Part shown: positions 23,201-60,071 of the stretch, piece after piece
Position numbering within the stretch: the stretch's first letter is position 1
How the letters are laid out: each line of letters opens with the position of its first letter
DNA from: Amia ocellicauda
Taxonomy: Eukaryota; Chordata; Actinopteri; Amiiformes; Amiidae
Reading direction: 5' to 3'
DNA: 64,000 nucleotides
NCBI RefSeq assembly: GCF_036373705.1
Contig: NC_089867.1
Span: 24,981,823 to 25,045,822 of the forward strand
Translations under genes and position numbers: made by a program
Notes under the pieces: model-generated
The model's input: the letters and a program-made list of their open reading frames with translations, nothing else
Database searches by the model: none
What the model was told of the DNA's origin: nothing

Positions 23201-25161
23201 CGTTCACAGAGCCAGTCCACGGTGCCTTGTACTGACCACACTGCGCTCTCATGCCCCTGTGTGTCGCTCTCGGATGCTCTCGAGTGGTCCCGTCACACTT
23301 GCACCGCCTGCAGATTGGATTACTGTAATGCCCTGCGCTCCTGAACAAGTTCACAAGGATGTTGCTCGAATTTAAAGCCTTCAGTTTCCTCCCGGCTCCC
23401 CTGACCACGAGTGACATCGAAGAGCTGAGTAGAAACCATGTTACTGTCACTTTGCACAGCATTGGAACGACACATTCCCGTCTCACAGCACTCGGACTCA
23501 TTGTGTGTCGAGCATCCAGACGATAGTGAACACGTTTCTGCTGACTGGCCTCTGTGGTCTCCTGGTCCCGAGAGACCAGATTGGGACACTTTAGGGATGA
23601 GATACCCAGAGCTCCCCGTGACAGTAAGGGTTATAACGTTCATTCTAATATTCATATTCACGCCGTGTGTGTGTGTCTCTCTCTCTCCTCTCAGGTGGTG
23701 GACATCATGCGCGTCAACGTGGACAAGGTCTTGGAGCGAGACCAGAAGCTGTCGGAGCTGGACGACCGGGCCGACGCGCTGCAGGCCGGAGCCTCCCAGT
23801 TCGAGACCAGCGCCGCCAAACTCAAGAGGAAGTTCTGGTGGAAGAACTGCAAGGTATGACACCCAGACCCCCCGCCCCCAACAGCCTTGTGTTTAAACTG
23901 CATAACTGATCAGATAATTTCTGCTCTCCCGATGAAGATTAAACAATCTAGGGAGTCAAGAAAAATGTACAAAAAACCTTCAGCCTGGACTCATGGAGCG
24001 TGGGGTGGACTTGTCATTAGTCTGGTGGGAAGCGCAGCCCTGATGCGTGTGGCGGTCGATTCTCGGGGGGAGTTCAGCTGTAATTGCGCGGCAGCCTTAG
24101 TGCGCTGGCTTGTCTGAGGAGCACAATGCAGTCGGCACCGTTATAACACAGGGGCGTTCAGCCCTGGAGCTCCCTCCTCTCCACCCGTTTCCCCTCGGCA
24201 TTTCAGCCCTGCTCCTCACGCTCCCCTCACGTCTAGCTCTCCCTTCATAGAGAAGCCACAGGAAGTGAACCTCGGTGTGTAAGGGTCCCGAAAAAGAACC
24301 ATTTTGGATGGTTTCTTGTTATTCTCTCCTTTTGTAATTGCTCGTTAAAGCCCCTCTGTTCCCGAAACACTAATTGTTGAGCGACGTGTCTTGCCTCAAC
24401 GCCAAAGACCCTTCTAGCCGATCCCAGGGTGGCAGGATCCCTGGCCTCCGTAGCCGCTTCATCACAGCCAGTGGCGCAGTCCTGGCTTTCCCCCCTGCCG
24501 GCCCGGCCTCCAGCTGTTAGCCCCCCCCCGTGTCGCACTGTCCCGTCTCTGTGAGCGCCTCGTTGAAAACCCTGTCCATTTGTCACGAGTTCAGGTATTT
24601 TTGTATTGTTTCTAATCCCGGGCAGAATCTCGGTATTGATTAAAATTGTTTTTTAAAGAGTTCTTTCCCAGGGAATGTGTGTCCGTATTATCCTCCACCC
24701 CCCACCATCACAGCGTGGTGTTGTCTGACTTCCTCCCAGAGTAACCGCGTTGTCTTTGTTCTGTCACCCTCAGATGTGGGCGATTTTAATAGCAGTTGTT
24801 TTGATCATCATCATCATCATCATCGGTAAGTACCCACCCTGCTCCTACACATTTCTTTTATTTTCTCTTTTATTATTGAGTACCTCAGCCACACGTTCCC
24901 TGGTCTCCAATATAAGAGACACAAACTCTGAACTTTTAGGCACACCATTTTAAAATACTCTCTCGCTGGCCTCCATTACACTCTTTGAGCAACTGTTGTA
25001 GGAAGGTCTGTGGTCTTTCAAATCAAAGATCTGCCTGAGAGGCCGAGTAGACCTGGGAGCCCCTCGCCGGTGGGTTGGGGATCCCGCTGGCGGCCCTGTC
25101 TGCCTGTCTCGTGCTCTAACCCTGCTCTCCTCTGTGCACAGTCTGGAGCGTGTCGCCATAG
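13754..25161 (+). CDS. vamp3: VAMP3 (cellubrevin), R-SNARE
   Basis: Tail-anchored vesicle SNARE of recycling endosomes that pairs with plasma-membrane syntaxin/SNAP23 Q-SNAREs. Exons: 13754-13755 (only AT of the ATG), 19282-19369, 23695-23853, 24774-24825 and 25142-25161 (TAG 25159-25161). The product is 106 aa. The short Pro/Gly-rich N-terminus is [17 protein letters not shown]. The R-SNARE motif covers residues about 20-80 ([12 protein letters not shown], then [19 protein letters not shown]), with the ionic-layer Arg at residue 55 in ELDDRADAL. The juxtamembrane segment is FWWKNCK. The transmembrane anchor is residues 84-103, with seven Ile in a row and a WSVSP tail. All introns are GT-AG with consistent phases. 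The body would also fit VAMP2, but a position between CAMTA1 and PER3 argues for VAMP3. Confidence 0.95.
13756..19281 (+). other. vamp3: VAMP3 intron 1
   Basis: A 5.5-kb intron starting GTAAGT after AT of the start codon and ending TTGGTTGACAG. No exon, RNA gene or complete mobile element recognised. Confidence 0.75.
19605..19700. repeat. Possible interspersed repeat fragment
   Basis: A G-run followed by CAACCCCGGTCCCGGAGAGC and a pyrimidine/ACAG stretch resembles a repeat motif common in fish genomes (ctggtcccggagagcc). The boundaries cannot be set. It lies in VAMP3 intron 2. Confidence 0.3.
22766..23078. repeat. CA-rich minisatellite (ACACAGGCATTATACACAT type)
   Basis: Irregular tandem array of units built from ACACACAGGCATTATACACA with CA runs, in VAMP3 intron 2. 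It generates spurious His-Thr and Cys-Val reading frames on both strands. Confidence 0.9.
23285..23400 (+). mobile_element. Degraded LINE (L2-like) reverse transcriptase fragment
   Basis: One frame reads [11 protein letters not shown] around 23,300-23,340, resembling the RLDYCN(A/S)LL motif in the C-terminal part of L2-type LINE reverse transcriptases. Stops and frame changes surround it, so it would be an old remnant in VAMP3 intron 2. The match is short. Confidence 0.35.
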
Positions 25162-40000: not shown

Positions 40001-43000
40001 GTGTGTGTGTGTATGTGCAGTGTGTGCGTGGTGTGGTGTGTGCGGTGTCTCTGACTGCCCTGTCCTCTCTCACCCTGGCAGACGTGACCCTGCTGGCTGC
40101 CGGGGCCCCAGACAGCCAGGTGTCGGCCGGCTCGGCAGTGTTGACCACAGCGGCCGTGGTGGGGGCCCCTCTGACCGACCTCACCCTGTCCACCAAAGCC
40201 ATGAGCGTGGTGTCGGTGACCAGCCAGTGCAGCTACAGCAGCACCATTGTGCATGTGCCCCAGCCCGAATCCGGTGAGCGCACACTACACACACACGCTT
40301 AAACACATGCATACGCACATACACACGCCAGCTACACACACGCACATGCTTAAACGCACGCCAACTACACACACACACACACACACACAGATCATGCACA
40401 CAGACACCATACACTTCACACATGTCAAATCCTCTGCTGTTCTTCAATGTCCTCACCTCTTCCTCTTCCTTGCCCCCCAGAGGTGACGGCGCTGGAGGAC
40501 GCCCCGATGGGCAGCGAGCCGGCCGACCCGCCCCGCCCCGCCCCACCCGGCTCGGCTGCGGCGCCGGAGGAGTTCCGCCGGGTGGGTCTGACCAAACAGG
40601 TGCTGTCGGCGCACACGCAGAAGGAGGAGCAGGACTACGTGGACCGCTTCCGCCACCGCATCCTGCAGAGTCCATACAGCTCCTACCTGCAGCAGGACGG
40701 CAGCAGCAAGGCACCCTCGCACCCCCACGGTGAGCCCCCCAGAGCCCCGCCCACCGGGACTGGGATTGTCTTGTCCTGATTGGCTTATTGCCACCCAATC
40801 AGTAGCGAGTTCGTAGCAGGGACTTGATAGGCATGAAGGAGGTGACAAATCACCCAGGATTAATCCATCTCTCTCCCTCTCTCTCTCCCTCTTTCACACT
40901 CTCTCACCCTCTTGTCCCCCTATCCTTCTCATTCACCATCTCTCCCACCCTCTCACCTTCTCTCCCTCTCCCCCTCTCCCTCTCCTTCACCCTCTCTCTT
41001 CCACTCCTCCCTCTCTCTCCGTGTCTGTAGGCGACTGCGCCATGCGGTCCGGCAGCGCGGCGGGCTGGAGGAAGTCCAAGACCAACAAGCACAAGCGTCC
41101 CAAACCGCAGGGCTCCTCAGACAGCTACGCCTCCCCCCCGGGCAGCAGCCGCCCCCGCCGCCCCCCCACCGCCCCGGCCGCCACCCTGCGCCAGGCATGG
41201 GCCCCCTCAGAGGCATCTCAGGGCCAGACGCCCGGCGTGGGCTTCCTCCCACCCGTGGTGATGCCCTTCCAACCGGCCTACTTCCCCGTGCCGGGCCATG
41301 TGGGCGCAGAGGCGGCATGTGGGGTGACTCTCCTCAACGGCGGCGTCCAGCCGGGGGGGGTCCCTTTCACTGCACAGCCACAGCCCAGCATGCAGCCCAT
41401 GCAGCCAGCGCAGCTCATGCCCTCAGTGCAGAACATGGTGCCCATGCAGTCAGCGCAGCCAGTACCGCCCTTGCCTTCCGTGCAGCCCTTGCCCCCCATG
41501 CCCCCAGTGCCAGCCCTGACCCCGTACATGGCGCCCGTCATGGCTGTTTTCCTCCCCAACTACCCCAGCTACCCCATGTTCCCGCAGGGACTGTGTGCCC
41601 CAGCCCCCTGCTCTCCCCCCCAGCCCTTCCCCTTCACCCCTTTCCACCCGGCGTCCTTCTCCGTGGCCCCGCCGCTTCAGGGGACCCCCGTGGCCTCCCA
41701 GACCCTGCTGGAGCCGCCCCTGCCACCCCCCAGGCCACCCCCCAGTCCACCCCCCAGTCCACAGCCACCCTCCACCGTCGGAGAGGACCTGGACCCGGCC
41801 CAGCCGCCCGCCCTGTTCTCCAGCTCCCGGTCCAGCTCCCCCCTCCAGCTCAACCTGCTGCAGGAGGAGCTGCCCAAGCCAGCGGAGGCAGCGGTGGGGG
41901 GCGCGGCGCTGCCGGAGACGCTGCTCGAACCGCTCGGCAAGAGGGTGAGTCTCCGGCCTCTCTGGCTCCTCGGGACTGCTATTGAAACGATGTTGGCGCG
42001 AGACTGCGGTGCAGCCGTAGGGATTTCAACCCCGTGTCCCCCGTGTCCCCCGTGTCCAGGACCGTGCCCACAGTGTATCTGGTGACCAGGACAGCCGGTC
42101 GACCTCCAGTGAGCTGCTGGACCTGCTGCTGCACGAGGGCTCGCCCTCCAGCACCGGCTCCCACGCCTCGGGCAGCGGCTCGGGGGAGTCGGGCGGGTCG
42201 CTGGGCTCGGGCTCGGACTCCCACGGCACCACAGGCACCTCTGCCAGCCACACGGGTGAGTACGCTGACCCGGGCCGCCGCACCCCAAACCTCTCCGTCC
42301 CTTCGGCGGCCCGGTCGCTGACGGGGGCCGCCCTCTCTCTCCTCCCCTTCACAGGCAGCCTGCCGTCGAGCCACAGCAGCAAGTACTTCGCCAGCAACGA
42401 CTCCTCGGACTCGCCCCGCCACTCGCGCCCGGGTCAGGAGGCGCCGGGGCCCTTCGACAGGCAGGCGGAGGATTCCCTGTGGAGCATGATCCAGCACACG
42501 CCCGAGCCCGTCATGATGAACTACCAGATCGTGCCACGGTACTGCGCCCCCCACCGGCGCCGCCAAGGCACCGCCCGCCCCCTCCACCCCGCCGCCCCGC
42601 AGTCTCCTCAATCACTCTTCTGGGATCTTTCTCTTTGCAGGGGAACTAAAGTATTTTGCTCCCAGTCCGATTCGCGGCTGTAGTTGTTCTGTTGGGTCTG
42701 AGCTCACGGGGCGAGAGGTAGGTGACTTCAGACCCGGGTCACCGAACTCCTCTGGCACGTCCTCTCAGGGCTGCGATTAGAGCTTAACGGCCGTTCCCTG
42801 CTAATTATTATCCTCGTCATTGAAGAGTGACATAGATTGACTTGCTGACAGTGTAGACTGAGTGGGCTGGTTGAATCCTTGTTCAGTTGTGTGTGTATGT
42901 GTGTGTGTGGGGGGGGAGGTGTGTGTTGGGGGGGGGGTGGGTAGTTTGGGTGTGGGTGTATGTGCGGTGTGTGCGCAGTGTCGGGGAGGGGGTGTGTGTG

Positions 43001-43617
43001 TGTGTGTGTGTCTGTGGGGTGTGTGTGTGTGTCTGTGGGGTGTGTGTGTCTGGGGGGTGTGTGTGTCTGGGGGGTGTGTGTGTGTGTGTGAGTGTGGGGG
43101 GGGTGTGTCTGGGGTGTGTGTGAGTGTGGAGTGAGTGAGTGTGTGAGAGGGTGCGTGTTGTGCGCTCTCTGACGGCGCTGTCTGTGCTCAGGGACCAGGC
43201 CCAGGTTCTGAAGGAGGACCGGGAGAAGCTGAAGCTCCTGCAGCAGCACCAGCCCTGGTTCACGGACAAGCAGAAGGAGGAGCTGGCGGAGGTGCACCCC
43301 TGGATACAGCGGGAGAGCCTACCCCCCGAAATAGACACCCAGGTACCACACACAGACACACACATGCTCACTAACACAGCATGGCCCCAAACACACACAC
43401 AGACACACACACACTCATTCACACTTATCCCTCTCCGTTTGCTTCTCCTGGTGTCTCCCCTAAGTGCTATGTGTTCGACTTCCCTCAGGGCTGCCTCACC
43501 TGTAAGACGACGGCCCGCGACACGCCGCCCTACGCCCCGCAGCCGCAGACCTACAACACGCCACCCCACCAGCCAGCCGGCGCCCCCCGGGACCCCAGCC
43601 CGGCACCCAACACCTGA
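34062..43617 (+). CDS. per3: PER3, period circadian regulator 3
   Basis: Clock protein that binds CRY and CK1 and helps repress CLOCK-BMAL1. Coding exons: 34062-34372, 34519-34617, 34978-35135, 35311-35429, 35618-35819, 35978-36029, 36227-36369, 36640-36718, 37231-37337, 38220-38376, 38547-38655, 38852-38980, 39212-39320, 39528-39666, 39834-39961, 40082-40273, 40481-40729, 41031-41944, 42060-42255, 42355-42538, 43192-43342, 43489-43617. Phases close exactly to 1,352 codons including TGA. The domains in order are an acidic/Ser-rich N-terminus; an HLH-like segment (residues about 137-190, ending NCVKQVQA); PAS-A from about 230 ([18 protein letters not shown]); PAS-B ([13 protein letters not shown] to [20 protein letters not shown]); a degron-like [12 protein letters not shown] (about 517); [26 protein letters not shown] and [14 protein letters not shown], which are typical of PER3 rather than PER1/2; a Pro-rich exon with [12 protein letters not shown]; and the CRY-binding end [13 protein letters not shown] with CLTC (residues 1311-1314). 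The last acceptor is chosen by homology. Confidence 0.95.
34519..34617 (+). other. per3: PER3 coding exon 2 (Ser-rich)
   Basis: Encodes [20 protein letters not shown] and continues to TTEG. The exon has phase 2 on both sides, so skipping it keeps the frame. The upstream acceptor is CTCCCTCCAG and the donor is GTAGGG. Confidence 0.85.
35526..35616. repeat. GTGTGTCGCGTCTC minisatellite next to the PAS-A exon acceptor
   Basis: About five or six units of CGTCTCGTGTGTGTCG run directly into the acceptor TCTGCAG of the exon starting at 35618. Confidence 0.9.
35868..35935. repeat. 13-bp tandem repeat CGTGTCGGGTCTC
   Basis: About five units in the PER3 intron between 35819 and 35978. Confidence 0.9.
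36462..36611. repeat. 26-bp minisatellite in PER3 intron
   Basis: Tandem units of GTGTTGACGCTGAGATGTTG followed by ATGCTT, with five full copies and one shortened copy. One copy has CCCTGAG in place of CGCTGAG. The array ends about 28 bp before the acceptor of the exon starting at 36640. It creates Gln-His-Lys-His repeats on the minus strand that are not a gene. Confidence 0.95.
37390..38122. mobile_element. Non-autonomous hAT-like element in PER3 intron
   Basis: A 733-bp element with inverted termini TAAAGCCCTGCA (left) and TGCAGGGCTCTA (right), 11 of 12 complementary. It is flanked by 8-bp direct repeats CCCTCTCT at 37382-37389 and 38123-38130. Subterminal regions are rich in GGCCCG/CGGGCC blocks in both orientations. 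The interior has a T-run and no recognisable transposase. TSD length and end structure point to hAT. Because the flanks are CT-rich, part of the TSD match could be chance. Confidence 0.7.
40283..40392. repeat. CA-rich microsatellite
   Basis: ACACACGC and ACACAC runs in the PER3 intron between 40273 and 40481. Confidence 0.85.
40868..41020. repeat. CTCTCCCT low-complexity tract
   Basis: A pyrimidine-rich array forms an unusually long polypyrimidine tract before the acceptor of the large PER3 exon at 41031. Confidence 0.85.
42886..43150. repeat. GT/GGGG minisatellite in PER3 intron
   Basis: Irregular units of GTGTGTGTCTGGGG and GGGGGGTGTGTGT with strong strand asymmetry (G/T on plus). It gives spurious Val-Cys/Trp-Gly frames on plus and Thr-His frames on minus. 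Confidence 0.9.
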
Positions 43618-43743
43618 GGCCCCCCGGCACCACTCTCACCCCGTCCCGGGAGTGACAAGGCCAGCAGGGCTGATGGACTCTGACCAGCAGACTTCCGGAG
43701 GCAGAGGCCGAGGCGGGGAGGCGGGGCATCGTATGGATATGTG

Positions 43744-43767
43744 TGTAAATATATGTGAATGTACATA
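43744..43767 (+). promoter_or_regulatory. Paired Pumilio-type elements in the PER3 3'UTR
   Basis: TGTAAATA at 43744-43751 and TGTACATA at 43760-43767 both match TGTANATA. They lie about 130 bp after the PER3 stop codon, in an AT/GT-rich stretch. Confidence 0.45.
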
Positions 43768-44693
43768 TGTGCATATATATATACGCACACACCACCAACA
43801 CAGACACGCTCGGGACATGCGTGGTCCGGCTGCCCTGAGCTCCGGCGCTCAACGGATCAGCGACTCTGACATGTGATACCTCAGTTTCTACACACGTGTG
43901 ACTCTGTAGTACTTCTCCTCCCAGCGATGGACCTCCACAACTGTGAATGTCAAGCCCCCCAGCAGCACACGCACACGTAACTGTCCTCACCCCGCGACCG
44001 GTTTCCTCCAGGCGAGGCGTGTCAGGTTTCATGTGGCTCTCGCTCACAGGTGCCACAGCCCGGTGGTGCTGAGAGGAGCCCCCTCTCCCCCGTGTCCACC
44101 TCAGACTGTCGTCTCGACTGTCTCGCTCTCTTCTGTTCAGTATTTGGACTCCTGTGTTGTCTTACTGTGTGAGATGGTTTTCCGTGTGTGTTTCTTAACC
44201 TCAACTGCAGGAGACAGTGTTTCACGTACAGGCAGGACTGTAGGACCACGGTACGTCCGTCAGCATCTTCAAGGACTTCAGTTGTCAGGAGTCTGTCTTC
44301 AGTGCCGTCCAGCGTTGGACCAAAGTGCTTTATTCGTTTCAATGAAACTACCACCGTTATTTGCTGTTCGTTAGTGTCATATTTTACCCCCTCTTTTAAT
44401 TGGGATAGTTATTATTATTTCAGTTTGGTCTCGTAGTTGGCCCTTGTTTGCTCTGTGAGGTGTTGGGTCATGGTTTGTTTTCCAAAGTCTGAGCATTAGC
44501 GGTCGACCCGGGCAGAGAGACGTCCCGGTCCCAGGAAGGCTGTGGTGGGGGCCTGGTGGCGTCAGACTCTAATATGGATGTCCTGGCTGTGGATGTTGAT
44601 GTTGTCGACGTCAATCGGGGCTGGATTCTGTGGGACGGATGAAAGGCAGTCACTGAAAACTCTTCAGGGGAGAAGAAAAGTCATTTGAATGTA

Positions 44694-46880: not shown

Positions 46881-47935
46881 TCCGTCATATTTAGGCTTTA
46901 ATCCCAGTTAAAGACCGGAAAGCAACTTACTGCTGGATCCAGACCAATCTGTTAGAATAGCGGTCTCCTCTGGGATGGCCGTTCAGGGCAGCAGAGTCAA
47001 ACACTCGTCAACAGGATGAGATTGGACCAGACTTTATGACTGTAGAGAGGGAAGGAGGGCAGTGAGATGTTATTGGGCGGTGTAAGACGTGATGAGCCCT
47101 CTCGCTCCTTTGCAAAGAGCACCACGGGAGCAGTGCATTGTGGGCGGAGCACCGATCAAAGAAGACCGTTTTCTCCTCGGCCACAGCTGCTCAGCTACCT
47201 AGTGGTGGGGGCGTTTCATCTCCCACCAAATCCTGCCCTGCGCTGGTGGAAGACACTAGTGCGGTGAAGGTCCGTTGAGGCCAACAGCTGGAGAGTTTAA
47301 TTGAAGATTGTTAGGACATCTCAAAATGTATGATTACAGAGTCCTCAGTTTAAGGTGGGTTGGCCGTGCAGCGCGGCAGCTTTAAATGAGTCTCCGTTGC
47401 TGTTACGATTGTCTTTGCTCGACATGAAGCTCGACCCACTTCCGTGCCAGCCTCGTTGTGGGGATCTGTCAAGATGGAGGTCTCTGTTATGATTGTACTT
47501 CATTTTGAAAGTGTATTGTATTTATACCTAGCCTGTTTATTGCCAAAACAAAGTCGTATTTTCTTTCTTTTCCTGTTTTAGTCTTTGGTTACAGAATCTA
47601 TTCACTTGTGAAGCGTTTCCTTCTTTTTTTCCAGAGGAGAAGCGTCCATTTTGGTTTTAGTCCACAATCATGGCCCGCGATCTTGGGCTGCCTCTCAGTG
47701 TCGCCGTGGGGCCCGAACGTGGCTCAGCGGTCCCAGCACAGTGGTTTCATCTGGACTCGGATGTTTTGTACAGTATTTTTTAGAAATAGACCTTTTTTTT
47801 ATATAAAGACCAAAAACCAAACAAAAAAAAATATATGTAATTTAAAAGTACAAAAATGCCAGTTGGTCATCTTTTCAGGGAATACTAGTTTTTGTTAGAT
47901 TGTAAAGTAACGTCAATAAAGATGAATAATGTTTA

Positions 47936-49740
47936 AAAAACACTAAACTCCTGTTGATTTAATTTCCAGTTCTGTTTATTTCACGATTATTATTTTTTTC
48001 CCCTCTTCTCACTTTTTGACGTTTACTTCCCAGTAGTCTTTCACTCTCACTCTCTCTCTCGCTCACTCACTCACACTCTCTCTCTGTCTGTCTCTCTCTC
48101 TCTCTCACTCTAAAGTCACCCAGCTGTTTTAGTCCGTTCCAACACTTGTACCTTTGAGTTGTGGTGCAGCGGGCAGGGAATGAGCCAGGACCCATCAGAG
48201 CACACTGCCCAGCCCTGGCCCATTAGATCAGACAGAGCCCCCCTGTGGACACGCAGCTCGGGTGAGATCCGCCATTTCTCTCTTTTTGAATAACTAGAAG
48301 AATCAGCCGCATTTCTTTTTCATGGTTATGCTGCCCCGGGGAAAGTGTTGTTTAGGTGCCCGTTTGACCAACAAGGGAAAGGAATAAAAACTAAAAACGA
48401 ATAAAAGGAATAGATTTATAATCCAAAAACAGTTCAACTATTGTCTTAATGGGCAGTTGAGAGTCTTTGGTTAGTGGATGGAGTTAAAGGGATGGTAGCC
48501 AATCCTTTGTAATGGCAGACCAATCTCATTTAAGGGCAGACTAATTAACTTACCTTTTTACTACAGTGGCTCTGTAAGGATTTGAACGCCCAGCTTTGCA
48601 GCGCATAATTTAAGCTCCTGTGAATAACAAAGAAACAAAACCAGTCTTGGCGAGACCAGACGTGCTCTGACCGTCCCAACTGATAGGCTAAATGGCAGGA
48701 AAGCCAAAGTTACTGGGGGGGGCAATATTGACGAGCTCCTGCTCCTCCGCTCGCTCTACCCTGCCCCCCCACCAGCATTTCATGAGCCTTGAAATTAAAG
48801 TATCGCTTCATAGGAGAAAAAAATCTAATAAATAGTAAAGAAATAAAACAAACATCATAAAAACGAAATATTGTCTATTGATTGGTTTTTACAGGACATG
48901 CGAGCGGTTGGGGGGGGTTAAAATGATTGAAGGCCGCCGTTAAAGCGGTGCTAGTGTAAAGGGTAATGTTCATCTCTGTGCCACGATCCCTCGCTTTAAC
49001 GCACCGAACAGGAAGACAAGGGCGTCTCTGGTTCCTGCCGACTCATCTTCAAACAGCGTTTCCTTTTTTTGCAATGTCTTTGTCAATAGGTTGTATTAAT
49101 TTACTTTATAGTGTCTCTGACCAGCGAGAGCTGGATTTAGAGTGAATACAAAGACAATTCATCCGTCAAAAACATCTCTAGAGTTTCAAGGGCTAAACAG
49201 TTCCAATTCCAGACTCCTGGTCACTGAAACAAATGCACCAAAATGATGGAAGAAGAACCAGGGACTGTAGATCTGTGCTCAGAGTCGGGCGATGGGTTTA
49301 ATTCATGCTTGCAAACTGCCGTTCTGGGACACGGGGAGAAGGAAAAAGGCGTCAAGTTATGGGCACACATCTGGATGGAACAGCACCCCTAGGCCAGATG
49401 TTCTGCGGTTTCAAAAGTGCACCCGCAATCAAGAGTCTGCAGTGATGTCAGGGCTGGACGTGTGCCGGAGTACAGATATTACAACCTTGTCAGCACTTGC
49501 AGACTTCCCGACAACTACCCCCCCTCTGCATGACGGAGTCTCGCCCTGCTACGCCCCTACCATGGAGTGGGCCGAGATCACCGGCTGGGCTTTACTGTTA
49601 TTGCCGTCCCTGCGTAGCGGTGCATTGTGGGGGAGTGGCCGTAAAATCGGAGGACACTCGCAGCCCGAGTAATTAGCTGCCAGCAGGTTTATGGGTCGGG
49701 ACGGAAGGGCGCTCTCTGAGGACCGCGGGGATCCCGATTG
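47936..49740. other. PER3 to osteocrin-like intergenic region
   Basis: Contains a (CT)n tract at about 48,042-48,112. No gene is recognised. A 126-codon open frame near 49,300-49,670 has no signal of coding. Confidence 0.6.
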
Positions 49741-49859
49741 GCCGGGAGGAGGAGCGGGCGGGGGTTTATAAAGCGGGGAGAGCGTGTGCCGTGCCAGTCT
49801 TGATCTGGCCAGCGCTGTCCTCGGCACTCCTGGCTCTCACCTCTCACGGCACTGCAAAG
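49735..49859 (+). promoter_or_regulatory. Osteocrin-like gene promoter and untranslated exon 1
   Basis: An inverted CCAAT box (GATTGG, about 49735) and a TATA box TTTATAAAG (49765-49773) precede a short exon from about 49,797 that ends CTGCAAAG before the donor GTAAGG (49860). The exon has no ATG in frame with the peptide, so it is 5'UTR. Confidence 0.7.
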
Positions 49860-50812
49860 GTAAGGAAGCCGCAATTATTTTCCCTGGTAATCCGGTTTAT
49901 TCTCGTGCATGAGGGCTGTTTGGTTAGGACTGCTGAGAATCGTACAGGGGCACAAAAGCAGGGCCGTATCCTCATTTAGACGCAACTGGTCTGTCTCGCC
50001 TGCACAGCATCAGCATGGCTTTTCCACACCAGGCAGTCCGGAGAGGTTTCTTGAGCTAGGAGGGGGTCAGCCACGGCTCACTTGGGGGGCGAACAGCATT
50101 TTACCACAAACCTTGAGTTCATGCTGTGGTATTGGACCTAGAGAGGGATAGTAAGGTGTGGCACGGACTGCAGGGAACAGCGGCAGGGCCAAGTGAGAGC
50201 CTAGTTGAGCACGATTAAGCCACAGTGTCATTGTAGGAGAGAGAGCATGTCTCCTGGTGCGCCGGTGTGGCCGAGGAGATGATCACAACGCAGGGCGACA
50301 CGGTTGGTGCTAGACAGGAGGACATCATTACAAGGGTGATATCCATTAACTGGATTGTTAGCTGGGTTATGCTCTGGACTGTCTAGGTGTTAATCAGCGG
50401 TGCCCTTAAGGGTGGACATCCCCCTCTTTGACGGACGGCTGCCCACTCTCACTTGAATATGAAGGAGCTGTCATTGTCTGCCACGTCTCTGAGTGGCACT
50501 GTGGTAAGGGGGACTTTATCAGATTATCAATATTGATTCCGAAGCGTATTGGAGTCCACGCAGCAGTTACACTTCTGAAAGTCTCCCATACGTGTGAAGA
50601 GTAGCAGCGTCAATAAAATCACTGTGCGTTGAGTAAATAGGATGGCATGAAAGGTGACATCCAGTCTGATGATTTTCCTGATGTAGGGTATATGAAACTG
50701 CCAAACAAGGCGTGGAGAGCTGCTCAATGTGCCATGTGTCTATCTTCTCTGTGTGAGAGAGAGAGTGACAGAGAGCTCTTCTGCTGTAGTGTATTTCTGC
50801 TGTGTTCCAGGA

Positions 50813-51848
50813 ATGATGGGCATGTTCCCCCTCTCCCTGGCCCTGGTGGTCCTGGCACTGTGGCCCAGCCATGCCAGACCGCTGCAGACAGACACTCTGA
50901 ACGAGGTAAAGGGGACGGGACCGGTCACAGTACAACACCATACAAACACCCGCAATATAACACAGCTGAACACACTGACGTATTGCAGGAAATCACAAGT
51001 TTCTCCACTTAAGAATATACTGTAACGCTCTGTGGGGTTGGTCATGGCATCTGGGGCTCTAATGAAAGACACACACAAGACAAACCAGCAGCCAAAGTCC
51101 ACGATCCAATCACAGTCCAATTCTAGAGTTCGTTAGCAGTAGGTTCTTGCTGTTCTATTCTTTCGCTCCTGCTTCCCCAATGACAAAGGGTGCCGGCCAA
51201 TCAGGGGTGACCAGGTCAGGTGCTTCTGCTTGAGTCATCTCCCGGGGCATCTGGGGGATATAGTGCCTGGCAGGGCAGCAGGGCATTGTGCCACAATATA
51301 TAATATACTTACATTTTCCCATTGATTGATTGAGCTACAGCCTTTGTCCAAGGAGACCCACATTTTATGAGGAATTGCAAAATAATAGTTTCAAGGTTAC
51401 ATAGAGTAGTGTGATACAAATCCAGATAAATAAACACAGTGAAACTAATACTGTGGCCCCGTCCTCCGCAGTTCATTGGTCTGCTCAGAGCCCTGGACTC
51501 TCCTGATGGACAGCTTGCTGAAGAGCGAGGATTGGAGCGCCTGCCAGAGGAGGCGGGGCTTATCGAGGACATCCCGGACAAGAGGGACCTCCCACGCCTC
51601 GGTGTGTTGGTGGACAGGCCACTCCCCCTAAAGGGCGGCGACAGGTGAGTCATTGTGAGGATTTAAGACCATCAAGTGTCTGAAATTTGACTTGAAGCAC
51701 GGATGTCATAGTGGACTTGCTAACTGTCTCTGCCACACATCTATACATTGACTGTCTACAAACTCTTCCTCTCCCTCTCTCCAGCAGGAAGATTATGGAC
51801 TCATCTAGGTACCGGTTTTCCTTCCCACTGACCAATCTCCGTGGATAG
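50813..51848 (+). CDS. Osteocrin/musclin-like secreted peptide precursor
   Basis: Predicted secreted pro-hormone of 109 aa. Exons: 50811-50905 (ATG 50813), 51472-51644, and 51785 (or 51788)-51848 (TAG 51846-51848). The signal peptide is MMGMFPLSLALVVLALWPSHA. An acidic propeptide leads to KR at residues 68-69, followed by DLPRLGVLVDRPL, and a second segment RKIMDSSRYRFSFPLTNLRG at residues 90-109. Both segments align without gaps to the two natriuretic-like motifs of osteocrin as I recall them (KRSFSGFGSPLDRL; RKVVDHPKRRFGIPMDRIG): KR, G and DR in the first; RK, D, RF and P in the second. There is no cysteine, as in osteocrin. Osteocrin binds the clearance receptor NPR-C and raises local natriuretic peptide levels. 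Position beside a urotensin gene on the opposite strand, with a CCDC50-like gene beyond, repeats the OSTN-UTS2B-CCDC50 arrangement. A second-paralogue identity is inferred from weak sequence similarity plus synteny. Confidence 0.75.
51316..51430. repeat. Degenerate SINE-like or conserved fish repeat fragment
   Basis: ACTTACATTTTCCC, then GAGCTACAGCCTTTGTCCAA and GGAGACCCACATTTTATGAG, resemble the fish repeat motif of the type 'gacgcttttatccaaagcgacttaca'. It is heavily mutated and boundaries are uncertain. It lies in intron 2 of the osteocrin-like gene. Confidence 0.3.
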
Positions 51849-52036
51849 GGACTGAGGGGTGAACTGGCGACCGGAGTTACCCCCTGCCCTGCTGCTGCCC
51901 TGCTGCCGCCGCCGAGACTGCTCCCCCTGTGCCACCTCTCCTCTGCTGCCTGTCAGCCTCCGAGCCCGTCAGACCCAGGGGGCCCTGTTGCCCCAGTGCA
52001 TGTTATGTAGCAGCCTGCTCTGAGCATCAGCAGGGT

Positions 52037-52042
52037 AATAAA
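52037..52042 (+). terminator. Poly(A) signal of the osteocrin-like gene
   Basis: AATAAA about 190 bp after the TAG, giving a short 3'UTR that ends about 390 bp before the 3' end of the convergent UTS2 gene. Confidence 0.65.
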
Positions 52043-52434
52043 CAGAAGCCAGGTCTGGTATGATTGCATCGAGCTGTCTGTCTGCTGTCGTATTCCTCTT
52101 CCTGAATCACCCATCGCTTGCACTTTTGCTGAGACACTCCAGTTGGGAAGTACTTTACTTTCTACTTGGCACTGTATCTCCAAAACACACACAGACACAG
52201 ACACACACTCGCAGACCTCTCTCTACCACTTCGACTCCCTAGATTTAACCCCTACCTCCCAACTCGTCTGGCATTATTAATATCTTTATGAACTGAAATA
52301 TGACAACGTTTGAGTGTTTTGTTCTCCATACACTGTCCAGGTAACTAAACCGTGCTCTTCCTCGAGCCTCACCTGCTCCTGTCTGCAGCCAGAAGAAAGA
52401 AGCATGACCTCAGACCCTTTTCGAAACATAAAGC

Positions 52435-52440
52435 TTTATT
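52435..52440 (-). terminator. uts2: UTS2 poly(A) signal
   Basis: TTTATT on plus reads AATAAA on minus, about 340 bp after the UTS2 stop codon; a second overlapping AATAAA follows. Confidence 0.65.
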
Positions 52441-52561
52441 TATTTTCCAACATACAGTTTGGCATTCGGGTGCCTTGGTCAACAGCAGACTGAGAGGGGA
52501 CTGGAAATCTGTCTGTATGTGCACTTTGAACACGCAGGGGTGGCCTATAAAAAAGTAATGG

Positions 52562-52602
<41 letters not shown>
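52562..52602. repeat. (GT)n(GA)n microsatellite
   Basis: GTGTGTGT followed by GAGAGAGA in the UTS2 3'UTR. Confidence 0.85.
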
Positions 52603-52777
52603 TCTGCAGTCCATCATGAGGTGTTTATCATCCGTTTGCCCTGATTTGTGTTGATCCTCGCTCTCTGCGTTCGGCGTGTCGGCCTGATGGCAGTGCAGGT
52701 GTGTCGGTGTGTGAGTGTGTTGTCTGCGTGTCGCGTGTGTGCCTGTGTGTCCAGCTCCGCGCCCATCCGCGCCGCGC

Positions 52778-54542
52778 TCAGACGCAGTACTTCCAGAAGC
52801 ACTCGGACGTGTTCCCTCTCTTCCTGTACTGTTTCCTGTTGCCAAGGAAGCGGCTCAGGGGGGACATCCGACCCTGTTTCTCCATGAGGACCTGAAAGAG
52901 AACAGCCCCATCGTACACATCCGACAATCCCTGATCAGAGCTCTGCCTCATGCGATGTGGAGCCGCCCCCCACTCCTATAACACTCTCACTGCCGTGGCA
53001 TCAGTACCATTCAAACTTGCTATAAAGCACACGAGCCAAGTTTCCGGACACTGCCGTGTTAGTGTCCACTCCCTTTTGTGCTTGGCATCATGTCACAGAC
53101 ATATTCTGTTTCTGCCCGGGTTCCATCTCGGTAATACGCCCGGGCATTTGTCTGGGCTTACATTTTAACACTTAAAGTAGATTCGTTTAATTTGAATGAA
53201 GTTATATTCTACGATCCCTTAAAGTCGCAGGGTAACCAGCGCCTACCTCTTTGACAGCTTCCCTCGGGATGTATCCTGTACCTCTGAGTCCTGAGAGAGA
53301 GACAGACGGAGAAAGAGAGAGACATACTGGTGAATAATACACGACAGGGCTTTAATGTATTCCCAACCCAGAGAAGAGACCTCTCGATATGCACATCTCA
53401 GTGCTGCCGTCGAGAGCCAGCTTAATTGCAAACGTACTAGCCTAGCAATCCGCTCCTACAGGGAGGGGACCCAGGCGGCTGTTGTGTCGCAGTTTAGGGG
53501 TTTTCAGCTGTGCCAAGGAAGAAAAAGCCAAGAAGTCAATCAATGTGATTTAGTTTTCACTGCGTGGGTCTGTCTGTGCCAGCACTTGGGTTGGATTTCA
53601 TTACATTACCTGCCTTATTTATGTATTCTTTATTTCTTAGCAGACTCCCTTGCTTGTTATATATCATATACTGTTATCTGCACCCGGTAAAACGCTGAAT
53701 ATATCCGACTGCTGTGTTTCTCTCAGCTGGGTGCGGATGTTTCATATCTCAGCAGCTACAGTGAGAGCCCCCCCTCTGTCGTGCCGGCGGCCTTACCCTC
53801 ACGGGCCAGCAGCGCGGGGTAGCCCAGTCCGCCAGGGCCGCCCTGGGAGAGGTAGGTCTGGTCCGACAGGCCAAAGTCCTCTGGGCCCGCGGCACGTCCC
53901 TCCTCCCCCGACACTGCGGAGACAACAACAGCAACAACCACTTCAGAACCCTCAGGGCACAGCGAAGACGGAGCTCTACTCTACACCAAGAGTGGTGGAA
54001 GGGTGGAAGCAAACCCACGACTGCTGTGGAAAAGAGATCCTGAAGATAGCAAGGAATGTGCTCTCTGAAAGTCTTGCAGCCTAGGTTAAGAGTATTAAGG
54101 GCTAAGAGTATTTATTTTACCTGTCGTTCACTAAGATTACTACTCAGTTTCTTTAATTCTGTCCTCACATCTGCAGTGAGCCCAGCTGCTCTTCTCTGGA
54201 CAGTTGTTTTAAGAATATGGAGAGCAGATCTGAAGGCACATTTGAGCACTATGTCCCTGGCCTGGTTCTCCTGGCACCCTTCTCAGCGCTGCCGGTCTTT
54301 TGCCTGTTTTCCACAACCCACCACGGCAGACCTGCGTCCACTTTAGTAACTGTGGGGGCTGCTCAGCCTGCGACTCGGTGCTAAACTGCCTCAGGATTTC
54401 AATCACAGACCTGTTGTATGAAGTGATGTGACTCACCGGGTCCGGGATAGGACATTTCTGAGGAGTCTGTGATGGGGTGAGCCAAGAGGGGCCAGGAGGC
54501 GGTCAGCAGCAGGGCCCAGGACAGCAGGAGTTTGCCCACCAT
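52778..54542 (-). CDS. uts2: Urotensin II precursor
   Basis: Secreted precursor of the cyclic vasoactive peptide urotensin II, the UTS2R ligand made in the fish caudal neurosecretory system and spinal CSF-contacting neurons. Exons on minus: 54542-54437, 53913-53797, 53290-53247 and 52891-52778 (TGA 52780-52778). All are GT-AG with phases 1, 1 and 0, giving 126 aa. The signal peptide is [21 protein letters not shown], with a proposed mature N-terminus at HPITDS. The propeptide includes [12 protein letters not shown] and [15 protein letters not shown]. The C-terminus has a basic site RKR (112-114) followed by [12 protein letters not shown] (115-126), with the invariant Cys-Phe-Trp-Lys-Tyr-Cys ring. 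The acidic residue before the first Cys and the 12-residue length mark UII rather than URP. The start has the Kozak context GCCACCATGG. The gene is convergent with the osteocrin-like gene and divergent from the CCDC50-like gene. Confidence 0.96.
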
Positions 54543-54656
54543 GGTGGCTGTTCGGACGATGGCTGCAGTGGGATCGGTTCGTCGGGCTCGTCGAGTGGCT
54601 CCTCCGCAGTGTCCAGAGGTCTGCTGCGTTCGCTCCCCCTCCGGCTCCCTCCAGGG

Positions 54657-54664
54657 CTTATATA
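54657..54664 (-). promoter_or_regulatory. uts2: UTS2 TATA box
   Basis: On minus, GTATATAAGCC lies about 115-122 bp upstream of the UTS2 ATG, fitting a TSS near 54,630 and a short 5'UTR. Confidence 0.7.
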
Positions 54665-54914
54665 CGTCTTCTCCCCGTCCCCTCCCCTCCCACATCCATA
54701 TTCTATTTGTTGCGTTGCTCATAAATAAAAAGTGAATGAATGAATGACTGAGAAAAAAAAAAGGACAATTGTGACGTTGGCTTGTCAGACTTGGCCCCGC
54801 TGTTGTTTTATTGCTGCGGCTGTAATACATTGCAGTTCTTTTTTTTATTTTTACAGAGTCCATAAATTTCAGCCCGGCGCAGGTGAAGGGGTGTAAGTGC
54901 TGTTTTTTTAAAGC

Positions 54915-54920
54915 CACGTG
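54915..54920. promoter_or_regulatory. E-box upstream of UTS2
   Basis: CACGTG lies about 375 bp upstream of the UTS2 start. It is a perfect E-box, but single hexamers are common; function is unknown. Confidence 0.25.
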
Positions 54921-56335
54921 GACCAGAGCCGGACGGCAAGGACAGGGTCTGTAGCGAGAGGCCTGATACACTGAGCTGTCCGGCTTGTGCGCCCTCTATT
55001 GGCCACTGGCAGATTGCACACCCTTACATCAACGGTGGATTCTGCCGCGTTTCTCATTCCCTCTTCAGATTCACTCACCCAGGTCTGGAGGTGAACACAG
55101 AAATAGTAGTTTGGAGATACAGAGCTTGTGGCTGGGCAGAAATGCGTGTGATGTCCATGCTGACAGTTTAAAAACAACCAAACCAAAACGAAGTGTGATC
55201 ATGTCATATTTGAATGTACGTGAGAATATTAGAACTTCTGATCCATTTTTTATTAAAACACTTGAAAATTAACTCGAACGAGAGTGGGAGTACGGTAACC
55301 AGTGAGTGTTGGCGATGCATCAGACGTGTTGCTGAGAGACACTGCCGATTGATTGATTGATTATTTTGAGATGAGATGATTCTGGAGCTGTGCGACCGCT
55401 GCGCATCGTTGCAGGCCGAAAAGGCAGTTGCATGATATTCTCATTTCCCTCAACATATTCCTCCTCCTGCTTCTATTAACTTGAATCCCCTCTTTGTAAC
55501 CAGTACGGTTGGGCACTTTAAATGTATGCAACATATTAAAAGTAAAAGGTTGTTTATTTAATTTTAAAATATAAACTCGCTGACTGGAAGCGGCCTGACA
55601 TTTCACTGAGTTGAAAGAGGCTCTTATACCTGTCAGCGACTTCTATAAAATCCACTTAATGGAAGTTGGCCTGCCGTCCTCAGTGACTCACCGTCGCTGT
55701 TCTGGCTCGACGTTACTTTCTTAACCGTCACCATAAACGCTTATAATTTATGTGTGCGGTGTCAGGAGCGGACTCGGTAATGGAGGTATGATAAACAGGC
55801 TTACTTTAAAGGCAGGCTGCCGGTAGCTCATTAGAATGAAAGAGTCGGCCCTCGCGCTGACCGCCACGACACAATGAACAGCGGAGGCTTTTGGGCTAAT
55901 TTATGAAGGAGCCGGTGACAGCTGTGGCTGAGAGGAAGGCAGTGATATACTGGAGTCACTGCCTTGTGACGGAGAGAGATGGTATGGAGAGTGGGTACGT
56001 ACATATGTTCAACAATCAAAGTGATTACTTTGAATAAATAAATGAATGGATGGAAATTTGGAGATCTAACAAAATCATTCTTATTATAAGTAGAGTATTG
56101 TTGTCATTACTGTAGTGATCTGGGACTGTGTGTGTCTGTCTGTCAGTTCTGTGTGTGGGGGGCTGGGGTATATTGCTTGGGGATCTGATGTTAGTTAGGA
56201 CGTTCTGGGGTCAAGGGTTAGCCCTACGCAGGAACATGGGGGGCAGAGTGATTGGGGGAGCCGTTCAAGTTAGTGAGAGACTGAGCTCTGTGTGTGTGTG
56301 CCTGTCCCCTCCTCTATTATTTATTTGTTTCGTGC
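54921..56335. other. UTS2 to CCDC50-like intergenic region, left part
   Basis: No gene recognised. Confidence 0.55.
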
Positions 56336-57203
56336 TGTTGAATCCATGTAGCAAAAGGGCTAAAATGCTCCATTGGTGTCAGAAGTGGGATCGAATTCAC
56401 AACGCTGTGCTATTGAAAAAAATAATGTAATAAATGTATTTGCCACTCTCATCAGGAAGAGTAGGGCCGTGGGATGCCAGAGTATGAAACAGCATTTTGA
56501 AGGCTCAAATTCTGCTGGCTGTGCCAAGAGCCTGGGCACACCGATGCAGAGTTGTGCTGGGCGCTCTGGGAAGCGGTCCGATTGGCCTTTCCCACAGAGA
56601 GAAGTGAACAGACACTAAGACTCGTCCACGGACGGTTCGAGGAGGGTGCCAGGGACAAAAACGATACTGAGCCGGTGAGTGAGCCCCAGCAGCTGCAGGA
56701 TGCAATGATGAACTCCTGAAAGAACCACCCCGGCGCAGCCCGTTCGAGGGGCCACCCCAGCACAAGATGAGAGGCGTCCGTGGATGGGACGCAGTTCAGT
56801 GGCAGCGGTGTCCAACAGGGGGCACATGAGCAGGCCTCGACGATCTCGAGCAAAGGGAGGACAGAGGCTGCAAAGCAGAGTGTGATTTCAAACCAGCCTG
56901 CAGGGAGAGAACTGACCGGTCAAGTTTCGCTGGGAAGCCGATAGGGGGCTGCAGAGACTTTGACAAATACTGAGGCGGTCTACCAGCCCGGTGAGCTTCA
57001 TCAGCAGTGGGGCTGTGAGTGGAGCTGGGATTGTCAGCCTCAGCCTGAAAAATTGGACAGGGGTCCTCTCCAAACGGACAAGAATGGGACCCAGGGGCGT
57101 AAGTAAGTGAAATAAACTGTAGCTTTAACTATCGTCTCTCCTATAAAGTGTTGTTTTGTGATGGTGAATCCACGTAGCAAAAGGGCTAAAATGTGACATT
57201 ATT
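56336..57203 (+). mobile_element. Short LTR-retrotransposon remnant (TRIM-like) with tRNA-Leu PBS
   Basis: Two direct repeats of about 31 bp, with core GTAGCAAAAGGGCTAAAATG, lie at 56336-56367 and 57162-57193, separated by about 800 bp. Directly after the first copy, TGGTGTCAGAAGTGGGAT at 56374-56391 is complementary to the 3' end of vertebrate tRNA-Leu plus CCA, the expected primer-binding site after a 5' LTR. Both repeats would end in CA (CTCCA, TGACA). AATAAA and TATAAA occur before the second repeat. The interior lacks recognisable gag or pol. Similarity outside the 31 bp is weak, so LTR limits are uncertain. Confidence 0.45.
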
Positions 57204-57580
57204 CTTAATATATATGATGTCTTGCCAGTTGATTCACATTGAAAATGTAGCTTTTACAAGTGAAAAGTGACATTTGTGTCACTAATCATGTAGGCTAATT
57301 TACTTAATTTGCATTCTATGCATAGGCCTAATAATTCATAGAAACAAAAATGTTATGTTTAATTATAGACGTGGTGATGGTAAATACGTATAACGTATTA
57401 GAAGGATACAAAAAATCATACATATTGTGTGTTTGAATGGTTGGATTGATTGGACCAGAGCAGGCTGGGCTCTTGCTGTCTAACGCCAGCCGGCAGCGAC
57501 GGTGTCAGTTCTGCACAGATTTAAAAACTTGTATGAACTTTCACAGTTGTATTCCCTGCAACTGTGAGGAGCGCTGTCCA

Positions 57581-57594
57581 CCAACAGGGGGCGC
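57581..57594 (+). promoter_or_regulatory. CTCF-like site
   Basis: CCAACAGGGGGCGC matches the CTCF core with one mismatch. A related CCAACAGGGGGC lies at 56812-56823 in the same orientation. Both are between UTS2 and the CCDC50-like promoter. Confidence 0.4.
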
Positions 57595-57939
57595 CACAGG
57601 CCGGCGCTCACTCCCAGACCACTGAATAAATCCTGCATCTGAAGTTTCTAATGCGTTGCAGTCAAAAGTAAAATTAACTCAATTAATTAAATGTTCATTA
57701 ACATTACTCTTTAAATCATTTATGCTTCTTGTTCTCAGAAATCATTTGAATAATGATAATACTAAGAAGCGATACATTGTCATTAACGTTAACACTAGGC
57801 AAAACAGACACCTTTTTAAAAATACCTACATTCAATGTTAAATAGCAATTCTCTCTATATATATATTACCTCATTTTCCAACACGGTGCAGACAGGCGCT
57901 GCTTCGCCGTTTTAAGGTGACTTTGCTCTTTATACAGCA

Positions 57940-58380
57940 GCGCACATGGACGTGGTTCAGCGCTTTTGTTGCGCAGCGAATGCAGTCGGGTTACGGGCGC
58001 ATGTGTGCAGAGCAGCCGGGCTGTGTGCGCTGCCGCCCCGCTGGGCTCTGGGTCTGGATGCGCTTTATTGCGGGGGGGCAGTCTGCTCAGCCTGCGTACG
58101 CAGGGAAAGTCGGTCCTCGGCTCGCCGGGGGGAGCCAGTCAGTGCAGTTACAGCTGTTGGGTGCGGAAAAAAAAAGTGTGCAGAGGAAGTTTGTCCCGGC
58201 GGGGCTGCCATCCGGGCTCCAGCTGCTTCGCTTTCTGTGTCCATTGACGGACCGGGACGAGCAGCGCGCAGAGCGGACAGTCCGAGCCGGGAGAGCCGGG
58301 AGAGCCGGGAGAGGAGCACCGCACACAGCACGACGCCTTTTCTGGAGATTTCTCCACAGCACGACAGTATCTCCTTCAGG
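57940..58380 (+). promoter_or_regulatory. ccdc50: CCDC50-like CpG promoter and untranslated exon 1
   Basis: A CpG-rich island rises sharply from AT-rich flanks, ends at TCCTTCAG and is followed by the donor GTAAAC at 58381. It contains a tandem GAGAGCCGG motif near 58,300. No ATG opens a frame leading into the next exon, so it is read as 5'UTR. Confidence 0.55.
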
Positions 58381-58516
58381 TAAACCTCATTATTTGAAAG
58401 TTATCGATGTCTTGTGCCACAGCTTTGGTGGAACAAACAGAAGCGGCTCGTCTGCTCCAGTGTATTGTGTGTTGGCAAAAGAAAAGTCGCATTTACAGAA
58501 ATAAGCGTTAGGGTTA

Positions 58517-58616
58517 GTGTGTGTGTAGTGTGTGTGTACAGTGTGTGTGTACAGTGTGTGTGTACAGTGTGTGTGTAGTGTGTGTGTAGTGTGTGTGTAC
58601 AGTGTGTGTGTGTGGG
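58517..58616. repeat. GTGTGTGTACA microsatellite
   Basis: Tandem GTGTGTGTACA/GTGTGTGTA units downstream of the CCDC50-like first exon; open frames in it are artefacts. Confidence 0.9.
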
Positions 58617-59929
58617 ATGAGGCCGGGACATTGTCGCCGGTGCGACTGTAACAGCGCGATGACACTGAAGCTGAAACAATGACGCGGAAGAGTCGGGACT
58701 GAACTGGATACAGAGTCGCCTCTCTAGGACTGGACGGCACAGGACCCCGGGAAACGTGTCTGACAGCTGCTAAAGACAAGGTCACGAACATGTATGTTTT
58801 ATACACGTTTATCTGCACTTTAGGAGAATGCATGTGACGCAGCTGCTGATAAAGTTCAGCCTCATTAAAGTACCACGGGTCCATGTGTGTGTATAAGATA
58901 TGCATGTGCAGTGTTTTCAAAAGTGTCTTGTTTTCTCCAATATAAAAAATGCCAAGAGACTACTGAAGATCGGGGTTTTATTCTTTAAAAATCAAGTCAA
59001 ACGTTGGATTCAGCAACAGTTGTGACTACTGTCCAGGCGTGTCTCTTTGGGACGGGGGCTGCATCAGATCCCCGGACAACTAAAGAGCCCAGATGATTTG
59101 ACTGCAGATGCGTTTTCCTACAACTAAGTAGCTGCTTTGTGATCCAATTACACAGCAGTGTCGGCTTATAGTGGAGAGGTGATGTAGGAGCTACAGAGAG
59201 GCACTTTGATCACACCTTGACACCTGAATAGGTGCAGGAATCCCTGCAAGTCTGCAGCCTGGAGGGACGGTTCAGTTTTATTCCAAAGCCATTCATTTAT
59301 GTCCTTTCCCAAACCGCAGAGCAGTCGTCTCGGAGTCAGATTTCTCGGTGATCTCAGTGGAGTATCAGACTACTCTCGTATACTGCTGGGCATGCTTCGG
59401 GTTTCTTCCCCAAAACACAGCATTAACAGCAGCCCCCGCCAACAGCAGAGGAATCGGTCTGTTTTCTGACATTACCGCTCCCTCTAAACTTAATTCCAGC
59501 CTTCTGCATGACTAGCATAGCTTTACCCATGAGGTAAATTTACAAGATGCTGTTGTGTTTCTGTCCCCTCTGTTTCGTGCTTGGTGTTGTGTTGCCCTTT
59601 TCCTCACTGGGTGTGCAGGCGTGAGCACGTCCCAGAGAAGGTGTGACCCTGTATTGCGGCATCCTATGGTATTCAGTACCATTTATTTTCAGGCTTTTCC
59701 CAAGCATAAATGCATTCACCTCCTTTCCAAGCAGACTGGTAAGGCCTCACCATCTTGGTGGGACAGAACCACCAAGAGAACAGTATCTATCGATGCTTCT
59801 GCTGTGTAGTGAAGTATTTTCAGTGCTGCAGATGACTGCCCTGTTTGCCAGTGTTTCAGATGGACTTTAATTAAAAGCACGATGGAATAGGATTTATTTA
59901 TTAATCCTCATCACTTCGTTTTCTTCCAG
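58617..59929 (+). other. CCDC50-like intron 1 (remaining part)
   Basis: No exon recognised; ends with the acceptor CGTTTTCTTCCAG at 59917-59929. Confidence 0.55.
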
Positions 59930-60022
59930 TGCCCATAGGAGCTGGTTGCTGGATAACACCCGTCCCCTGGATGCCATGAGGCTGTGATTGCCGGTGAGGA
60001 GGCAGCAGGAGGTACCACAACC

Positions 60023-60071
60023 ATGACCGAGCTAGAGATTGACCAGTCTCACCTGCCGCGGGTGCAGGAAG
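60023..60071 (+). CDS. ccdc50: CCDC50-like (Ymer), first coding exon (partial gene)
   Basis: The exon runs 59930-60071, with ATG at 60023 and donor GTAAGG at 60072. It encodes MTELEIDQSHLPRVQE plus the first base of the next codon. This resembles the human CCDC50 N-terminus as I recall it (MAEVSIDQSKLPGVKE; IDQS, LP and V.E shared), where coding exon 1 also ends. CCDC50 is a ubiquitin-binding coiled-coil adaptor linked to EGFR and NF-kB signalling. Two minute upstream ORFs (ATGCCATGA at 59971 and ATGAGGCTGTGA at 59976) precede the start. The downstream exons, expected to begin with a Val-Cys pair, are not found up to 64,000, so the rest lies beyond the window. Identification rests on 16 residues plus the position beside urotensin. 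Confidence 0.65.

Follow-up and report, generated by a model that had tools for sequence, protein, structure and literature searches.

The 64,000 nucleotides of Amia ocellicauda analysed here (the window, C24:24981823-25045822, where C24 stands for contig NC_089867.1) contain three neighbouring genes, namely a gene for a peptide resembling osteocrin (OSTN) on the plus strand, the urotensin II gene UTS2 on the minus strand and the beginning of a CCDC50-like gene on the plus strand. A sequence-only reading had proposed these three genes with just these strands, and all of them are present. In human, the order OSTN-UTS2B-CCDC50 is typical of 3q28, as opposed to the UTS2 region of the 1p36 type. 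All comparison loci were taken from the same genome (C7, C24, C10 and C6), genome searches covered the 988 Mb assembly, and human OSTN and CCDC50 sequences served as further queries. The Pfam cut-offs were 21 bits for Musclin (PF11037), 18.6 bits for Urotensin_II and 27 bits for CCDC50_N (PF15295).

The OSTN-like gene has three coding exons with four consensus splice sites, all on the plus strand, and its open frame encodes a secreted precursor of 108 aa with a hydrophobic N-terminus that fits a signal peptide. The exon with the ATG at 50813 (50811..50905) comprises 2 nt of 5' untranslated region (UTR) and 31 codons including the signal peptide, and ends with a phase 0 donor. The second coding exon (51472..51644) carries the propeptide, a KR site and a partly kept first natriuretic-like motif (GVLVDR) and ends in phase 2, whereby the Arg codon of an RK site is split by the intron. 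The last coding exon (51788..51850) contributes the RK site, the C-terminal peptide IMDSSRYRFSFPLTNLRG and the stop codon at 51848-51850, and AATAAA at 52037..52042 (+) is the likely polyadenylation signal. A length of 109 aa, as given in the sequence-only reading, results from an alternative NAGNAG acceptor with an exon start at 51785; it was replaced by 108 aa with the acceptor at 51788, 3 bases later, because OSTN of the same genome splits the same Arg codon. In both genes an acceptor-like site lies immediately 5' of the ATG exon, from which a further intron upstream of the ATG may be assumed.

This canonical OSTN was located by a genome search with Musclin, which led to three matches, all at C7:42112513-42117110 on the minus strand (best E 9.8e-33). 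The gene (42117110-42112510, -) encodes 133 aa with 209.5 bits to Musclin, and its first coding exon has 33 codons, ends in phase 0 and is followed by F, a layout also observed for the OSTN-like gene. Alignment of the OSTN-like peptide with this protein (37/105 aligned residues identical) gave a score of 63, which was reached by 0/3000 shuffles, as also in two further settings, and exon-by-exon shuffles gave 45, 0 and 0 of 3000. Although the alignment was blind to introns, both coding introns were placed at identical residues in all three gap settings, one in phase 0 before Phe and the other in phase 2 inside Arg of the RK site. Both genes also share a secreted precursor with KR and RK in register, the C-terminal end (NNRG in OSTN, NLRG in the OSTN-like peptide), and their position and orientation with respect to urotensin and CCDC50. 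They differ in that the OSTN-like protein is 25 residues shorter, lies on the UTS2 chromosome, and is without much of the conserved propeptide block of osteocrin and without a DRIG-type motif.

Several results weigh against this kinship. With 12.7 bits (E 0.12) the 108-aa precursor misses the Musclin cut-off, even though Musclin was the better of two families listed for it and the register is right (67-104 to profile 79-120). The locus was not listed in the genome-wide Musclin search, and no Musclin match was obtained by Pfam for the 109-aa reading or for its C-terminal pieces. The likeness to human OSTN, whose sequence as used here is sound at 243.5 bits to Musclin, is only marginal: the alignment score was reached by 12/3000 shuffles, and the best piece in blastp had 20.8 bits. 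In tblastn of human OSTN against the six-frame window the locus came 7th among the matches listed (19.6 bits, tied with the 6th), and within 44400-52400 it came 2nd behind a chance match of 21.2 bits. PDB searches with the OSTN-like peptide and with human OSTN gave no match. The osteocrin label is nevertheless firm because of the comparison with OSTN of the same genome, human OSTN alone being too weak. The proposed grouping with osteocrin is thus borne out by the alignment and by the identical intron positions and phases, whereas a profile search alone does not recover it. Judged from these sequence features, the OSTN-like gene is an OSTN paralogue by descent, which we do not file as osteocrin by function.

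UTS2 runs on the minus strand in four exons (54542-52778) and has 28.6 bits to Urotensin_II. Coding exon 1 with the signal peptide (54437..54542) is followed by exon 2 (53797..53913), exon 3 (53247..53290) and exon 4 with the mature peptide region (52778..52891), the latter detected by Pfam Urotensin_II and in the genome search. A likely polyadenylation signal (TTTATT on the plus strand) lies at 52435..52440 (-), so that UTS2 and the OSTN-like gene stand tail to tail. An acidic residue precedes CFWKYCV, which we take to be a mark of the urotensin II (UII) type, a KR site is present, and the gene adjoins PER3, named by position. The CFWKYC pattern had 13 matches in the genome, four of which look like urotensin genes: C24 (UII), C7 (URP), C10 (URP1) and C6 (URP2), with URP1 and URP2 presumably assigned correctly from their end sequences. 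URP, URP1 and URP2 of this genome therefore lie elsewhere than the UTS2 locus of the window. In URP, URP1 and URP2 the CFWKYC codons seem to be immediately preceded by an intron (acceptor-like AG upstream), unlike in UTS2 of the window, whose last exon has 30 codons ahead of CFWKYCV.

Of the CCDC50-like gene only one coding exon lies within the window (59930..60071, +; ATG at 60023), its start being placed by an acceptor-like site. Its 16 codons (60023-60071) encode MTELEIDQSHLPRVQE and end in a phase 1 donor. Against the N-terminus of human CCDC50 they scored 48, compared with 33 for the best of 30 shuffled windows and 32 for the best of 60 shuffled queries. A CpG-rich stretch at 57900..58379 (+) may contain a 5' UTR exon of this gene (GT at 58380), going by consensus only. 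Further coding exons were found beyond the window at 73581-73643, 74470-74593 and 74695-74785 (+, window numbering extended), and the joined N-terminal 109 residues reach 133.1 bits to CCDC50_N. A genome search with CCDC50_N gave six exon matches at two loci, one at C7:31.74-31.75 Mb and the other just past the window at C24:25.055 Mb. Both genes have four N-terminal exons with equal phases and near-equal lengths (49/63/124/91 on C24 and 52/63/130/91 on C7) and the CCDC50_N domain; they differ in that 59/109 residues are identical and in the high third-position GC of the CCDC50-like gene, whose later exons were partly traced. From these sequence comparisons, its identity as a relative of CCDC50 is secure. 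As CCDC50 is a ubiquitin-binding adaptor, the CCDC50-like protein most likely works, by analogy, in the same way. The third-position GC is 0.88 for the CCDC50-like gene on C24 and 0.56 for CCDC50 on C7.

The sequence-only reading had suggested a comparison with the species' own OSTN-UTS2B-CCDC50 locus, and separate OSTN, URP and CCDC50 genes are indeed present on C7. CCDC50 (31763333 to about 31737429, -; CCDC50_N) and URP (last exon at 31769373, +; ACFWKYCV) are arranged head to head at 31.74-31.77 Mb, and the relative orientation of OSTN, urotensin and CCDC50 on C7 equals that on C24 read backwards. Since neither OSTN nor CCDC50 is restricted to one locus, the block in the window did not arise by rearrangement of a single copy. 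As the peptide also groups with osteocrin, neither of the two objections named in the sequence-only reading applies. C7 OSTN is adjoined by MASP1/3-type exons and C7 URP by an eIF4G-type exon; in human, both MASP1 and EIF4G1 belong to 3q27. Of 73 genome-wide matches to the MASP CUB exon, the best apart from the exon itself is on C24 (18.92 Mb, 50% identity) and would fit MASP2 of human 1p36. Since this MASP-type pair adds to the pairs URP/UII, OSTN/OSTN-like and CCDC50/CCDC50-like, C7 and C24 have four gene pairs in common. When open reading frames (ORFs) of the C24 window region were compared with two C7 stretches (190 kb), 46 matches were obtained with no pair beyond CCDC50; the remaining matches were judged to be transposon, repeat or low-complexity sequence.

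These pairs would be explained if an ancestral tight neighbourhood OSTN(+)-urotensin(-)-CCDC50(+) had been duplicated as one unit during the early vertebrate genome doublings. Its two descendants would be the OSTN-URP-CCDC50 region (3q28 type; C7) and the UTS2 region (1p36 type; C24), with all three genes retained at the UTS2 locus on C24 of this species. Ohnologous blocks from the early doublings, with a secreted OSTN-like peptide that is probably not mainly an NPR3 ligand and a CCDC50-like adaptor, are in our view very probably the best explanation. To our knowledge, mammals are without OSTN and CCDC50 copies at the UTS2 locus. The UII family, including the UII/URP split, has been attributed to the first and second of the early vertebrate genome doublings (1R/2R) (PMC4364556). 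UTS2 and UTS2B (URP) have accordingly been described as paralogous loci and products of 2R, and the window fits the UTS2 side with a UII-type gene beside Period and VAMP exons. By synteny, the duplication of the C24 and C7 blocks most likely dates to 2R.

Four observations have to be set against a block of this age. OSTN on C7 is 10.3 Mb away from URP, so that the triplet is broken there and compact on C24. The OSTN-like frame was read in this species alone, which leaves selection on it conjectural. The placing in 2R relies on synteny and on what has been published on urotensins, the comparisons being unrooted. Around URP1 (14 kb) and URP2 (10 kb) nothing above chance was detected for OSTN or CCDC50. 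A short stretch near URP1 that might have been a trace of OSTN (KCSFPGFGYPL, L045:3503-3535) was discarded, as a stop follows directly and no gene context was seen. In mouse, the gene order is Ostn, Uts2d, Ccdc50 (PMC13421559), and the separation of OSTN and URP on C7 is a rearrangement of this cluster. Unexpectedly, it is the UTS2 locus that has stayed compact here, and not the canonical OSTN locus. The duplicated block of the sequence-only reading is supported by gene pairs, orientation and introns, except that the compact triplet has not been kept on C7.

What the OSTN-like precursor may do was considered from its processing sites and motifs. The KR and RK sites are 19 residues apart, compared with 23 in C7 OSTN. 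Secretion and subsequent cleavage by prohormone convertases would release a 19-residue middle peptide DLPRLGVLVDRPLPLKGGD and the 18-residue C-terminal peptide IMDSSRYRFSFPLTNLRG. Two natriuretic-like motifs matter for osteocrin. The first (SPLDR) is partly kept in the middle peptide, where GVLVDR follows the pattern G-x-x-V-D-R, and the second (DRIG) is lost from the C-terminal peptide, which has FPLTNLRG instead. Osteocrin is described as an NPR3 ligand, and in vitro its fragments have effects on GPR1 and GPR68 (PMC6838683). With the C-terminal DRIG-type motif gone, binding to the natriuretic clearance receptor NPR3 is probably not the main activity of the OSTN-like peptide any more, and an osteocrin function of this copy is doubtful. 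The peptide would either have taken a new role or be only loosely constrained.

In one alternative, the gene is indeed an ohnologue of OSTN, but one that is decaying or no longer expressed and has no hormone function left. This would be compatible with the block duplication and would account for the missing second natriuretic-like motif, for the absence of much of the conserved propeptide and for the Musclin value below cut-off. Because an open frame, four consensus splice sites, a signal peptide, the KR and RK sites and a polyadenylation signal have all remained, we regard a remnant as unlikely, though worth keeping in mind.

Ohnologous blocks from the early doublings have also to be weighed against a later event, in which OSTN and CCDC50 were copied beside UTS2 in the fish lineage, by the teleost doubling or a segmental copy, instead of in 2R. 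A fast-evolving late duplicate could look equally diverged, and the comparison is unrooted. However, the two copies would then have had to insert to the left and right of UTS2 with the same order and orientation as in OSTN-URP-CCDC50. The gene between them is of the UII type and lies beside Period and VAMP exons, with the UII/URP split held to be of 1R/2R age (PMC4364556), and the MASP pair also links C7 and C24. In addition, the N-terminus of the C24 CCDC50-like protein is about equally far from human CCDC50 (56/108 identical) and from C7 CCDC50 (59/109), while human and C7 CCDC50 share 80/110. This suggests a split of the C24 copy before the parting of fishes and tetrapods, as would be expected for an early duplicate, although unequal rates might give the same picture in a comparison with no outgroup. 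A later copy is therefore considered improbable.

A last alternative arose from a likeness, noticed after the fact, between the signal peptides of the OSTN-like gene (50813-50890) and UTS2 (54542-54465), with 11/26 residues identical in an ungapped alignment. Of 20000 regional shuffles, 1 reached its score and 6 its identity, and the DNA score of the signal-peptide exons was reached by 1/1000 shuffles. It also counts against kinship with osteocrin that the whole OSTN-like precursor aligned to the UTS2 precursor with a score of 59 (reached by 1/3000 shuffles), near the 63 observed with OSTN. When the signal-peptide exon was omitted, the score with UTS2 dropped to 25 and was reached by 1693/3000 shuffles, compared with 60 and 0/3000 for C7 OSTN; as the remainder is at chance level, the likeness to UTS2 is confined to this exon, where it may be due to chance, convergence or local gene conversion. 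That the peptide is no relative of OSTN, but a secreted peptide of other origin or a partial copy of UTS2 in inverted orientation, is thus highly improbable, since the first coding intron is in phase 0 and not in phase 1 as in UTS2, long DNA similarity between both loci is missing, and the introns coincide with those of OSTN; an origin from UTS2 was rejected because the likeness ends with the signal-peptide exon and the introns match OSTN.

The osteocrin copy in the window looks like a relative that has been overlooked. In the open-licence literature searched, no title, abstract or passage that came up pointed to a gene of the OSTN or CCDC50 type at the UTS2 locus; for cichlids, a single OSTN gene is given in a prohormone survey (PMC4992253). 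Earlier notice in the urotensin synteny literature, or unnamed gene models in public annotations, may exist. Osteocrin has been implicated in bone, muscle and brain (PMC6838683). If true, a diverged OSTN paralogue beside UTS2 would give the osteocrin family a history, let the importance of individual parts of the precursor be judged from a natural experiment, and add a new candidate hormone in fishes. With OSTN and CCDC50, the set of markers connecting both urotensin loci also grows. In its widest form, the proposal would be that osteocrin is not a one-gene family but has a 2R ohnologue at the UTS2 locus, a processed secreted peptide which lost the clearance-receptor motif and acquired a new receptor or role, and that OSTN-urotensin-CCDC50 was an ancestral peptide-hormone neighbourhood, with only one full copy left in mammals; we consider its chances to be about even.

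In the flanks of the triplet, an IQ exon, a Synaptobrevin exon (23545..23856, +; VAMP3 by position) and two Period_C exons (42021..43873, +; PER3 by position, the upstream anchor of the UTS2 locus) exceed the Pfam cut-offs, and a PAS match in the window remained below its cut-off. The names CAMTA1, VAMP3 and PER3 within the IQ, Synaptobrevin and Period families were assumed from the sequence-only reading and the human gene order. Downstream of the IQ exon, positions 2508-3620 hold an unbroken frame of 371 codons for a transposase of the Tc1/Sleeping Beauty type (HTH_SB, HTH_Tnp_Tc3_2, DDE_3). Two open frames in the ORF list, 45540-45842 and 46178-46624, are alike and resemble a repeated element.

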